From a virus: a DNA stretch of 39,709 nucleotides. The notes beneath the pieces are model-generated. The model ran no database searches and was not told the origin of the DNA. It saw only the letters and a list, made by a program, of their open reading frames with translations. A program made the position numbers and the translations under genes. The first letter of the stretch is position 1, and each line of letters starts with the position of its first letter. Shown here one piece after another: positions 3,969-39,709 of the stretch. The stretch is taken from the IMG/VR virus record IMGVR_UViG_3300037196_000141, positions 1 to 39,709 of that record. The stretch is one strand, 5' to 3'.

Positions 3969-4047
3969 GCTGGGATAGCTAATAGGTAAAGCGCCTTCGA
4001 CATGAGACATGTTCAAGGAGACATCGGTTCGAACCCGATATCTGGCG
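3969..4047 (+). ncRNA. tRNA-like RNA with abnormal anticodon arm
   Basis: The T-arm is textbook: stem ATCGG/CCGAT around loop TTCGAAC (4023-4039). The D-arm is also tRNA-like (TA, then GCT-AATAGGTAA-AGC at 3976-3992). The acceptor GCTGGGA (3969-3975) pairs with ATCTGGC (4040-4046) only through several G-U pairs and one A-A mismatch. The central arm (3994-4018) is wrong for a tRNA. It folds as a 9-bp stem with one C-C mismatch and a 7-nt loop TGAGACA lacking U33, so no anticodon can be assigned. No CCA is encoded. This is either a decayed tRNA or a tRNA mimic. Confidence 0.5.
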
Positions 4048-4052
4048 TTGAG

Positions 4053-4104
4053 ATGCCTTGTGGTGGAGGCATGTAAAATATAGTCCATTTCCAGCTTTGA
4101 GCTG
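4053..4104 (+). promoter_or_regulatory. Two hairpins downstream of the tRNA-like RNA
   Basis: Hairpin one is ATGCCT (4053-4058) with AGGCAT (4067-4072). Hairpin two is CAGCT-TTG-AGCTG (4092-4104). Bases TTCCAGC (4089-4095) are also complementary, with one G-U, to the 5' acceptor strand GCTGGGA (3969-3975), so the two folds compete. The stretch lies directly upstream of the GroES-like gene and may be a structured leader. No terminator-like T-run follows either hairpin. Confidence 0.4.
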
Positions 4105-4142
4105 TATGCTGAAAAACACGCTCACCAATTTACGAGAATCCT

Positions 4143-4436
4143 ATGATCAAAGCTACGGCTAAAAGATTAATAGCAATACCTATAGTTGAGAAACTAGAGA
4201 AGGGTAAGCTTATATTTACCGCGGAACCTGAAACCTTCAATGCTGTAATTATAGCAAAGGGAGAAGAAGTAACGAAGAACATCGACATTAACGATGTAGT
4301 GATATTGAAGAGAATGAGTGGGTTCCCCTTTGAAGTAGGACAAACAAAGATGCTCTCGATAGTAGAGCAAGAGATTATAGCAATTATCCCAGGTAATGGG
4401 GTTCAAGAGACGATGGAGCACGATGGAACAGCTTAG
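4143..4436 (+). CDS. GroES-like (Cpn10) co-chaperonin
   Basis: 97 aa, the length of bacterial GroES. The opening 'IKATAKRLIAIPIVEK' matches the first GroES strand (I-x-P-L-x-x-R-V-x-V-x). Next come a short mobile-loop-like segment with a hydrophobic G-K-L-I-F, a strand with 'NAVIIAKGEEV' (compare G-E-V-L-A-V-G-x-G), 'DINDVVILKR' (compare V-G-D-x-V-I-F), and the C-terminal 'SIVEQEIIAII' (compare M-x-E-x-D-I-L-A-I-V). Family knowledge: such proteins cap the host GroEL ring, and phages such as T4 (gp31) use their own version to fold the capsid protein. The assignment rests on pattern matching, not a search. Confidence 0.7.
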   Translation: MIKATAKRLIAIPIVEKLEKGKLIFTAEPETFNAVIIAKGEEVTKNIDINDVVILKRMSGFPFEVGQTKMLSIVEQEIIAIIPGNGVQETMEHDGTA

Positions 4437-24314: not shown

Positions 24315-24932
24315 ATGGCTCCAACCCTATCTCCCCAAGTAACACCTTATTATGGCGGTGGTCAAGTAACTGACCCAGCGAATGTAATTAAAACAACAGG
24401 CGCACCTAGTTCGGCTAACATCTATAACAAACTCGGTACTATCGCAGTAGACAATGCGGCTGCTACCGCCTACATGCTTGTCTCTAAGTCTGGGGGCGTT
24501 GCTACTTGGATTGATCTAGGTGGTGGGTCTGGATCATTCACATCTCTTACAGCTACAACTGGCAACATCACTGCAACCCTAGGGAACGTTGTTCTCAGCG
24601 GAGTTGGTTCAGGGTTTGTAACAACCCCGACAGTTGTAGCTGCTGGTGCATCGCCACAAACTGCCAACGGCAGAATTGGGCAGGTCACATTCAGTGGCGT
24701 ATCCATTGCATCTGGGGCTTCCCAAACATTCACAATCACCAATAGCGCAGTAACAGGCGCTTCTACAGTAGTAGATGTTTCTTGGTATGGCGCAACTGCA
24801 GGTTCTGGGCTTTCGATTGCTAGCATCACCAACTCCGCAGGCTCAACTGCAATCGTCATGACTAATAGCACTTCAGCTACTAACGTGACATCAACTGCGA
24901 ACATTACATTCGTATATCAAGTACTGAACTAA
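24315..24932 (+). CDS. Tail fibre/appendage protein
   Basis: 205 aa, Ala/Gly/Ser/Thr-rich. The N-terminus ('YYGGGQVTDPANVIKTTGAP', then 'YMLVSKSGGVATWIDLGGG') is a segment typical of phage appendage proteins. It also resembles 'KAYILVNKELGIADWLLF' in the fibre at 25270, so both may attach in the same way. The C-terminal 100 residues are beta-type and end in a fibre-like 'NITFVYQVLN'. First gene of the fibre operon. Confidence 0.65.
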   Translation: MAPTLSPQVTPYYGGGQVTDPANVIKTTGAPSSANIYNKLGTIAVDNAAATAYMLVSKSGGVATWIDLGGGSGSFTSLTATTGNITATLGNVVLSGVGSGFVTTPTVVAAGASPQTANGRIGQVTFSGVSIASGASQTFTITNSAVTGASTVVDVSWYGATAGSGLSIASITNSAGSTAIVMTNSTSATNVTSTANITFVYQVLN

Positions 24933-24939
24933 GGAATCC

Positions 24940-25260
24940 ATGGCAACACCTGTATTTAATCAGACCCCTTTTGTGGGCAACAGACCGATTGGAAAGTTGG
25001 ATGCACAGGGCCGAGTAATCCCTAGTACATTCGAAGATCTGGCTTATCAAGCAGATGATGGCTCAGGTACTACAATTACATATAAAGGCTGGGCCCGTGT
25101 AGGCGCATCAACATCTGCTGCTGTCTGGAAGATTCAGAAACTAACCTATGACGCCTCAGGCAATGTATTGACTATTACATGGCCACAGAACACAGCAGGC
25201 ATTGCCACGGCTGAATATGAATTCATTTGGGCAAATAGAGCGTCACTAACTTATTCTTAA
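24940..25260 (+). CDS. Small tail appendage protein
   Basis: 106 aa, compact beta-type sequence without repeats ('ATYEF'-like ending, 'LTYDASGNVLTITWPQNTAG'). Strong leader AAGGA. Lies between two fibre genes and probably links or caps them. No family recognised. Confidence 0.65.
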   Translation: MATPVFNQTPFVGNRPIGKLDAQGRVIPSTFEDLAYQADDGSGTTITYKGWARVGASTSAAVWKIQKLTYDASGNVLTITWPQNTAGIATAEYEFIWANRASLTYS

Positions 25261-30672: not shown

Positions 30673-31637
30673 TTACTTTCCTTGAAAATATCTGAAACAT
30701 ACTTGAAAACGTTTAACGAATCTAGTCTTTGTTGGAAAGATATACGGAAGTTATGTTGCTTAAACTCAATGGTTTCTGTCCCATATGGCAGTGTGAACAC
30801 AACGGATCGGCCTATGATATTGATGTCTTTGAAGCCTTTGGAGTTTAACTTCTCTACGACCTTCGATGCTAACTCGGAATTGGGCTTCTCTTTCTCAGCG
30901 ATTCTTTTGAGCTCTTCTTCGGAAGGAGGTTTAGCCATTTCAGTGATTTTCTTCGCTTGAGGATTCAGCTTCTCATACTTTGAGTTAGGCCACTCATGGG
31001 GTTGCAACATCCGGAATGGACGCTTGTAAGGCTTCCCATTCTGTATGGCTTGCGTATCCAGGAACTGAATCATCGTTGCCAAACGTTCTTTTTGGTAAGT
31101 TCCCTCGAGTATTAAGAGTTCTTCTTGGCTTAAACGAATCGTTTCTGTTCCTTCAAAGAGAGGGGGGGGAGGGGCTTTAGCCCCATCAGCTTCTTTCTTT
31201 CTCTTTATTTCTTTAACTGTTTCTTCTTTATAAGCGACATTTTTGTCATGTTCGATGATAGCGACATTTTTGTCATGTTCATCGAACGTGACATTTTTGT
31301 CATGTTCGGTAACATTTTTTGAAAAACCATCGGTTACATAGATTTTTCTATGCTTAACCCAATGAAACTCATGGTTTCCATTTGGAACCATGTGACTTTT
31401 GGTCTCTCTTTTAATGAATCCTGCATTTTCAAGTTGCTCATGCCAACGGTTAATCTGACGAACGGTAACGCCTTTCATTTTTGCCAGACTTTCATCACTA
31501 GCCCAGCAATATCCAAACTTCTTGGCAAGACCAGCCAATATTCCGAAGTGAATTTTTGCGGCATCTGAAAGAGTGGTATCAGCAAGTACAGCGTAGGGTA
31601 TCAATGCTACGTAAGGCAGGTCGAGGTCATGTGTCAT
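30669..31637 (-). CDS. Replication initiator / helicase-loader-like HTH protein
   Basis: 322 aa. The N-terminal winged helix (residues about 24-80, 'DAAKIHFGILAGLAKKFGYC', 'ASDESLAKMKGVTVRQINRWHEQLENAGFI') is of the HTH_36 type found in phage and plasmid initiators. Residues 107-136 carry a tandem peptide repeat, E-H-D-K-N-V-[AT] (three full copies plus K-N-V-T), encoded by DNA iterons. The remaining region is Lys/Glu-rich, with a C-terminal alpha/beta domain (about 230-322). Its position directly upstream of DnaB and the internal iterons imply it binds the origin and recruits helicase, as lambda O does. Leader AGGA. Confidence 0.8.
   Translation of the reverse strand: MTHDLDLPYVALIPYAVLADTTLSDAAKIHFGILAGLAKKFGYCWASDESLAKMKGVTVRQINRWHEQLENAGFIKRETKSHMVPNGNHEFHWVKHRKIYVTDGFSKNVTEHDKNVTFDEHDKNVAIIEHDKNVAYKEETVKEIKRKKEADGAKAPPPPLFEGTETIRLSQEELLILEGTYQKERLATMIQFLDTQAIQNGKPYKRPFRMLQPHEWPNSKYEKLNPQAKKITEMAKPPSEEELKRIAEKEKPNSELASKVVEKLNSKGFKDINIIGRSVVFTLPYGTETIEFKQHNFRISFQQRLDSLNVFKYVSDIFKESK
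31236..31321. repeat. Iteron array inside the initiator gene (putative origin)
   Basis: GACATTTTTGTCATGTTC occurs three times exactly: 31236-31253, 31263-31280 and 31290-31307, with 27-base spacing. A partial copy, AACATTTTTTG, lies at 31311-31321. Each has dyad symmetry (GACA-TTTT-TGTC). On the gene-sense strand the array is followed by a purine-rich, AT-rich tract (31190-31233). Iterons inside an initiator gene next to such a tract is the layout of the lambda origin. Confidence 0.75.
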
Positions 31638-39405: not shown

Positions 39406-39586
39406 AAATATATGGATTAGTGTAAAGGATAATTTGAAGCCTAAAGAATATGATCTAGTGAGATTGCGTGACTATGAAGGACGCATTACTAGCGGATGGT
39501 ATTCTAAAGAGGGATGGGATGGTCCGAGAATGCGGGCTACTACACAAGTTATACAATGGATGAAGCCAAGTGAATACATGTACTGA
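39353..39586 (+). CDS. DUF551-like protein
   Basis: 77 aa from GTG 39353 (AGAGGG upstream). The start is uncertain because ATG 39287 and 39305 in the same frame have no ribosome site and overlap the previous gene more deeply. 'NIWISVKDNL' gives the DUF551 opening. 'LVRLRDYEGRITSGWYSKEGW' gives its core. 'VIQWMKPSEYMY' gives the W-x-P-x-x end. It is the most complete member in this genome. Its stop lies just inside the terminal repeat. Confidence 0.75.
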   Translation: MDQYQNVEKKKRQIKIPRNIWISVKDNLKPKEYDLVRLRDYEGRITSGWYSKEGWDGPRMRATTQVIQWMKPSEYMY

Positions 39587-39709
39587 TAGAAGAATAACAA
39601 CTATGAACATGTTACCTAAACTGTTGATAGATAAGATCAATGCAAACATTAAGGCTTGGCTAGGCTTGCCAGACAAAGAAAAGAAACAATGGCCGCCTTT
39701 GCGCCGTGC
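39583..39709. repeat. Terminal direct repeat, copy 2
   Basis: Exact copy of bases 1-127 at the right end of the window. Removing it leaves a 39,582-bp circle. Confidence 0.95.
39603..39709 (+). CDS. Repeated 5' part of the gene at 21-272 (cut by window end)
   Basis: The first 35 codons of the small basic helical protein described at 21-272, repeated because the ends overlap. It is the same gene, not a second copy. Confidence 0.9.
   Translation, partial: MNMLPKLLIDKINANIKAWLGLPDKEKKQWPPLRR

Follow-up and report, generated by a model that had tools for sequence, protein, structure and literature searches.

A candidate replication origin inside the HTH_36 initiator gene of an uncultured phage, with iterons that may be matched to two residues of the recognition helix

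The window analysed here is the whole of IMG/VR virus record IMGVR_UViG_3300037196_000141 (39,709 nucleotides), and it holds a circular genome of 39,582 bp, the first 127 bases recurring at the end of the record (39583-39709). An end overlap of 123–127 bases is also found in several sister records, belonging to phages with a related portal, which suggests that the repeated ends stem from the k-mer used in assembly and are not a true terminal repeat of the phage. The phage encodes a P22-type portal. The locus described in this work comprises a replication initiator gene and the gene for a DnaB-like replicative helicase, whose start overlaps the last 4 nt of the initiator gene (Table 1). Along the coding strand of the initiator gene, the winged-helix domain is followed by three iterons, then by a purine tract rich in A+T and a GC-rich hairpin, and finally by the C-terminal domain.

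Table 1. Positions of the genes and sequence features at the initiator locus (window coordinates)
Feature	Position	Strand	Basis
DnaB-like replicative helicase, 455 aa	29305..30672	-	PF03796 E=2.5e-87; phrog_19 E=3.6e-98
Replication initiator gene, 322 aa	30669..31637	-	PF13730 E=1.8e-8; phrog_270 'replication initiation protein' E=1.2e-13; structure models
GC-rich hairpin GGGGCTTTAGCCCC, directly beyond the AT-rich tract	31171..31184		no stronger short hairpin in the gene; equalled in 1/100 codon shuffles
AT-rich tract, purine-rich on the coding strand, adjoining iteron 3; candidate DNA-unwinding element	31190..31233		A+T content and strand asymmetry
Iteron 3, core GACAAAAATGTC (coding strand)	core 31236..31247; exact 18-mer 31236-31253	-	
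Iteron 2, core GACAAAAATGTC (coding strand)	core 31263..31274; exact 18-mer 31263-31280	-	
Iteron 1, closest to the HTH domain, core GACAAAAATGTC (coding strand)	core 31290..31301; exact 18-mer 31290-31307	-	
Degenerate fourth site, doubtful: AACATTTTTTGA (also given as TCAAAAAATGTT), 8/12 matches, 21 bp before iteron 1	31311..31322	-	read from the sequence
DNA coding for the winged-helix DNA-binding domain (residues 9-101)	31335..31613	-	N-terminal domain model, with pLDDT of roughly 90 or higher for residues 11-80
Recognition helix (residues 59-71) with R60 and R64	31425..31463	-	both positions co-vary with the iteron half-site

The initiator belongs to the HTH_36 family (PF13730; 34.5 bits, the curated cut-off being 25) and not to Phage_rep_O (PF04492), the family of lambda O. 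Pfam gave no PF04492 match for it, and the O-like matches among the PHROGs were weak (phrog_678, E=6.9e-6); lambda O and P22 gp18 match PF04492 at about 1e-36 to 1e-38. In the AlphaFold2 models the winged helix is confident (about residues 9–101), residues 106–181 are disordered, and the fold of the C-terminal domain is weaker. The solved folds nearest to the N-terminal domain are 4pql, 4pt7, 5kbj, and 4pta, which we take to be plasmid Rep initiator domains, together with 2v79 (DnaD N-terminus), all of them modest matches (E about 3e-3 to 2e-2), and a direct sequence search of solved structures gave no match. The likeness to plasmid Reps is limited to the predicted fold, no RepA_N domain being found in the initiator by Pfam. 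A single-sequence search of viral contigs returned no close relatives of either the initiator or the DnaB. The latter is 30% identical to P22 gp12 (E=1e-47).

The 18-bp sequence GACATTTTTGTCATGTTC (GAACATGACAAAAATGTC on the coding strand) occurs three times without mismatch at a spacing of 27 bp, and has no other copies in the window on either strand. These three exact repeats had already been reported in a first-pass annotation of the DNA, and are confirmed both by exact matching and by the best in-gene repeat score of the initiator gene, which is 36 compared with a maximum of 14 in 100 codon permutations. The same annotation described the whole 18-mer as dyad-symmetric; the symmetry resides in a 12-bp core, GACATTTTTGTC (GACA-AAAA-TGTC), and the additional ATGTTC lies outside the dyad. 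The partial fourth iteron that it proposed corresponds to an existing site, which is degenerate and out of the 27-bp register. The DNA of the repeats encodes the predicted disordered linker (residues 106–181 in the structure models), which places them, as first thought, between the DNA-binding and the C-terminal parts, and it does encode a tandem E-H-D-K-N-V peptide, in a single frame. Shuffling synonymous codons while keeping the peptide reaches the score of 36 in 1 of 100 trials, a result that is not decisive for the window gene alone because E-H-D-K-N-V is itself repeated.

The asymmetric AT-rich tract noticed beside the iterons also stands: positions 31190-31234 are 76% A+T, which ranks them at the 99th percentile among windows of 45 bp, and their + strand is 82% pyrimidine, a bias that only 0.06% of windows equal. 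Past this tract, a GC-rich hairpin like that of the window is also present in three of eight sisters (L034, L028, and L038), which have other initiators, and these hairpins lie mostly near C-rich (proline) runs. The idea that such a hairpin is a third component of all these origins was rejected, since it is restricted to the window and those three sisters; as a part of the origin in this phage, it is suggestive only.

Distant HTH_36 initiators, with 28–40% identity limited to the N-terminal third, contain the same or nearly the same site, as in the phages Leuconostoc LLC-1 (TGACAAAAATGTC), Flavonifractor Cormatin (CGACAAAAATGTCG), and Cellulophaga phi39:1 (CGACAAAATTGTC). When viral contigs were scanned for pairs of GACAAAAATGTC separated by 6–36 bp, at least 119 stretches were found, versus none for a scrambled non-dyad 12-mer of the same composition, and among the matches listed the doublet was located within an HTH initiator, on the coding strand, at 63 of 80 loci. 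GTCA-AAAA-TGAC, initially intended as the negative control, was replaced by that scrambled sequence when it proved to be another iteron type (24 matches, 11 within HTH_36-like initiators). Bacterial and archaeal genomes gave at least 118 stretches with GACAAAAATGTC doublets and, among those listed, 52 fall inside HTH initiators, the genomes concerned representing nine phyla. The listed matches include three contigs labelled as Candidatus Altiarchaeales, archaea (L200, L226, and L275). Two further loci (L094 and L123) have open frames of about 480–510 aa with GACA iterons in another frame (QKC first), the protein of L123 being without a Pfam match.

The reading frame of the site was counted in 55 nonredundant HTH_36 initiator genes, allowing one mismatch to the 12-bp sequence. 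It is read as D-K-N-V in 121 copies, as T-K-M in 38, and as Q-K-C in 11, and two or three frames are mixed within one gene in 35 of the 55 initiators. Since one site is read in mixed frames within single genes, the peptide is not what is kept; at these repeats, selection maintains DNA and not peptide, and the question put by the first-pass annotation, whether iteron DNA is more conserved than its translation, is clearly answered in the affirmative. The spacing in these relatives is mostly 21–24 bp, with 22 and 23 nt common, and 27 bp is seen only in the window. Their A+T content peaks at 0.70–0.80 over the 40 bp that follow the final iteron, the gene mean being 0.58, so that the order of iterons followed by an AT-rich segment is general. 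In an iteron-independent sample of relatives chosen by protein alone (41 nonredundant genes), 37 have a significant in-gene direct repeat, every one starting at codons 75–170, and some of these are short AT-rich repeats, not dyads. Relatives that keep the protein and lack clear repeats, the case that had been set against the origin from the start, are rare (4 of 41).

The half-site of the dyad varies among initiators, and so does the recognition helix. In a de novo search for dyads composed of a half-site, four A-rich nucleotides, and the inverted half-site, 129 of 158 nonredundant initiators proved to have at least two. An R or K at position 60 combined with R64 (window numbering) occurs in 100 of 102 genes with GACA half-sites, most of which had been chosen by their DNA, versus 2 of the 27 genes whose half-sites are different (Fisher 4e-22, or 2e-17 when dereplication is made harder). 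Among the protein-chosen genes the corresponding counts are 3/3 and 0/20 (p=6e-4). Positions 60 and 64, one turn apart on the recognition helix, are the most informative columns of the domain about the half-site. R60/R64 is paired with GACA, S, P, or A at 60 in several cases with GTCA, and mostly T, S, or A at 60 with N, A, S, or T at 64 is paired with CAAG, CCAG, and CCGA. The helix of the window initiator, GVTVRQINRW, predicts GACA, which is the half-site observed. A tree from which the helix columns had been left out provided 16 independent pairs, 12 concordant and none discordant; only two lie on well-supported branches, too few for a tree-corrected estimate of co-variation restricted to such branches. 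From more than 100 relatives, the comparison suggests that two initiator residues (R60 and R64) match the sequence of the repeats.

The window initiator and the HTH_36 phage initiators have in common N4-AAAA-N4' iterons within the gene, after the HTH domain. It seems somewhat more probable than not that one origin design is common to the HTH_36 initiators of phages and prophages from at least nine bacterial phyla, in which in-gene dyads of the type half-site-AAAA-half-site', placed in any frame, have a half-site set by two recognition-helix residues one turn apart. A literature search for the 12-mer and for HTH_36 together with iterons, covering a minority of the subscription journals, met with no account of the iteron family, and both the family-wide design and the specificity code are apparently undescribed.

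Among known systems, the iterons of lambda O, P22 18, and phage L 18 lie within the initiator genes and differ in sequence, and gp12 is DnaB-like (PMC8022706). In P22, as in phage L, the annotated rep_origin is within the initiator gene and a DnaB-like helicase gene follows with a 4-nt overlap, as in the window. The two DnaBs are homologous, whereas the initiators are not detectably so by BLASTP (E=0.10), gp18 being a Phage_rep_O protein, and the iteron sequences differ; a P22-like 18/12 module in the strict sense, with a homologous initiator and a DnaB-like gp12, is therefore not what the window contains. Lambdoid origins are described as lying midway in O and as being made up of iterons together with an AT-rich region (PMC7466680). 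The ori of lambda resembles the window in its mid-gene iterons, which are imperfect dyads of about 20 bp, its asymmetric AT-rich tract, and a helicase-step gene with a 4-nt overlap. It differs in having four iterons at 20–24 bp spacing instead of three at 27 bp, an initiator of a different Pfam family, and a loader, P, that recruits the host DnaB, whereas the window phage has its own. The initial description of a lambda-like origin consequently holds for the layout, which matches lambda O/P and P22 18/12, but not for the initiator, which is HTH_36 and not of the O family. The DnaB gene next to it, confirmed by Pfam, does not break with precedent but follows the known arrangement of P22 and phage L.

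The DNA-binding domain of the window initiator is shared by the HTH_36 initiators of other phages, namely Leuconostoc LLC-1, Cellulophaga phi39:1, Flavonifractor Cormatin, Lactobacillus iLp1308, and Staphylococcus 77. The first three have the window's in-gene dyad, identical or nearly so, in other frames and at 21–24 bp spacing. DnaB is encoded next in several of these phages, as in the window, and a DnaC-type loader in some. In the RepA_N plasmid pSK41 the ori is central in rep and the linker is dispensable, and in the chimera pPR9 a PF13730 N-terminus and ori region that replaced the pSK41 equivalents supported autonomous replication (PMC5703833). These have their origin inside the initiator gene, as proposed for the window, but are plasmids with antisense-RNA control and a host helicase.

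Three dyad iterons follow the DNA-binding part of the initiator gene and precede its C-terminal part, an asymmetric AT tract lies on their C-terminal side, and a helicase gene comes next. Assignment of the element to the class of origins located in initiator genes, with a P22 layout and an HTH_36 initiator, is well supported by these sequence features. We consider the element to be the theta-type replication origin of the phage, placed within the coding sequence of its own initiator, with a probability of about 0.86. We infer a mechanism in which dimers of the initiator would use their N-terminal winged helix to contact the three GACA-AAAA-TGTC dyads, R60 and R64 probably facing the half-site, as the co-variation indicates. 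The bound complex would wrap or strain the DNA so that the adjacent AT-rich tract opens, and the DnaB encoded by the next gene would be loaded there, probably via the C-terminal domain, by analogy with lambda and P22, to initiate theta replication. The peptide encoded by the repeats would be a mere flexible linker, so that initiator binding could shape the DNA in this region at little cost to the protein.

The repeats might instead be initiator-binding sites that act mainly in regulation (autorepression, titration, or handcuffing), with replication starting elsewhere. Iteron arrays can serve copy control in plasmids, and the intergenic region upstream of the initiator start could hold other sites. 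GC skew, a check suggested by the first-pass annotation, gives no origin signal at 31 kb, either raw or at third codon positions: the cumulative curve has its minimum at 38.8 kb (38797) and its maximum at 6.6 kb (6620), not at 31.2 kb. This curve mostly reflects gene content, and its switch near 38.7 kb coincides with a change in gene direction. Regulation as the main role is nevertheless unlikely, since the 12-mer has no other copies in the genome, about 300 nt into the gene is an odd position for a promoter-operator, the AT-rich tract directly adjoins the array on one and the same side, both in the window and, as an average, among the 55 relatives, and the precedents of matching layout (lambda, P22, pSK41, and pPR9) are origins.

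At the matching locus, the sisters have other initiators: two are Phage_rep_O, one is clearly HTH_36, and the rest are other DnaD/initiator types. Six of the eight sister initiator genes have significant repeats of their own, each of a different sequence, at relative positions 0.34–0.44 and with periods of 15, 22, 23, or 27 nt. The other two have no clear repeats, G010 showing a single palindrome at that spot and G016 nothing clear. The initiator-DnaB pair of the window is absent from all the sister genomes examined, apart from one weak HTH match, which indicates that the module was swapped in; judged from these comparisons, the replication module, iterons included, is exchanged as one unit. 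The initiator gene L025 (sister G004), with its own iterons TCCCC-AAAAC-GGGGA, contains at nt 543–558 an isolated site of the window type, GGGACATTTTTGTCCC. The window's DnaB gene is missing from the sisters, and in three of them a small ORF of 119–126 aa overlaps the end of the initiator gene (G006 24742-25122, G007 3995-4354, and G014 1219-1584), possibly encoding a helicase loader.

A module swapped in from another phage could have brought iterons that are now unused. This is very improbable, as the three exact 18-mers and the matching R60/R64 helix are intact, the helicase and initiator frames are open, and no competing initiator was recognised among the window proteins scanned (Pfam and PHROGs). 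Least credible of all is a tandem repeat at the peptide level, an E-H-D-K-N-V linker grown by slippage with the likeness in DNA as a by-product, which would fit the single frame and nine-codon period of the window's copies and the same-peptide shuffles but is rejected on the mixed frames of the relatives, where identical DNA gives different peptides, on their common periods of 22 and 23 nt, and on the tracking of the half-site with the recognition helix.

With an origin inside its initiator gene, this uncultured phage would be a further case of the lambda/P22 class. More useful than the single element is the family-wide result. That one short DNA site is kept through many genes, whatever the frame, is unusually clear evidence for DNA-level selection in a coding region, and it yields a concrete, testable rule that would link the recognition helix of the initiator to the origin. 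If this rule is true, the origin and the specificity domain move and change together, and the sequence of the origin would be predictable from that of the protein. Sequence alone would then allow origin calls in a large number of phages and prophages, and the exchange of replication modules as self-contained units would become easier to explain.
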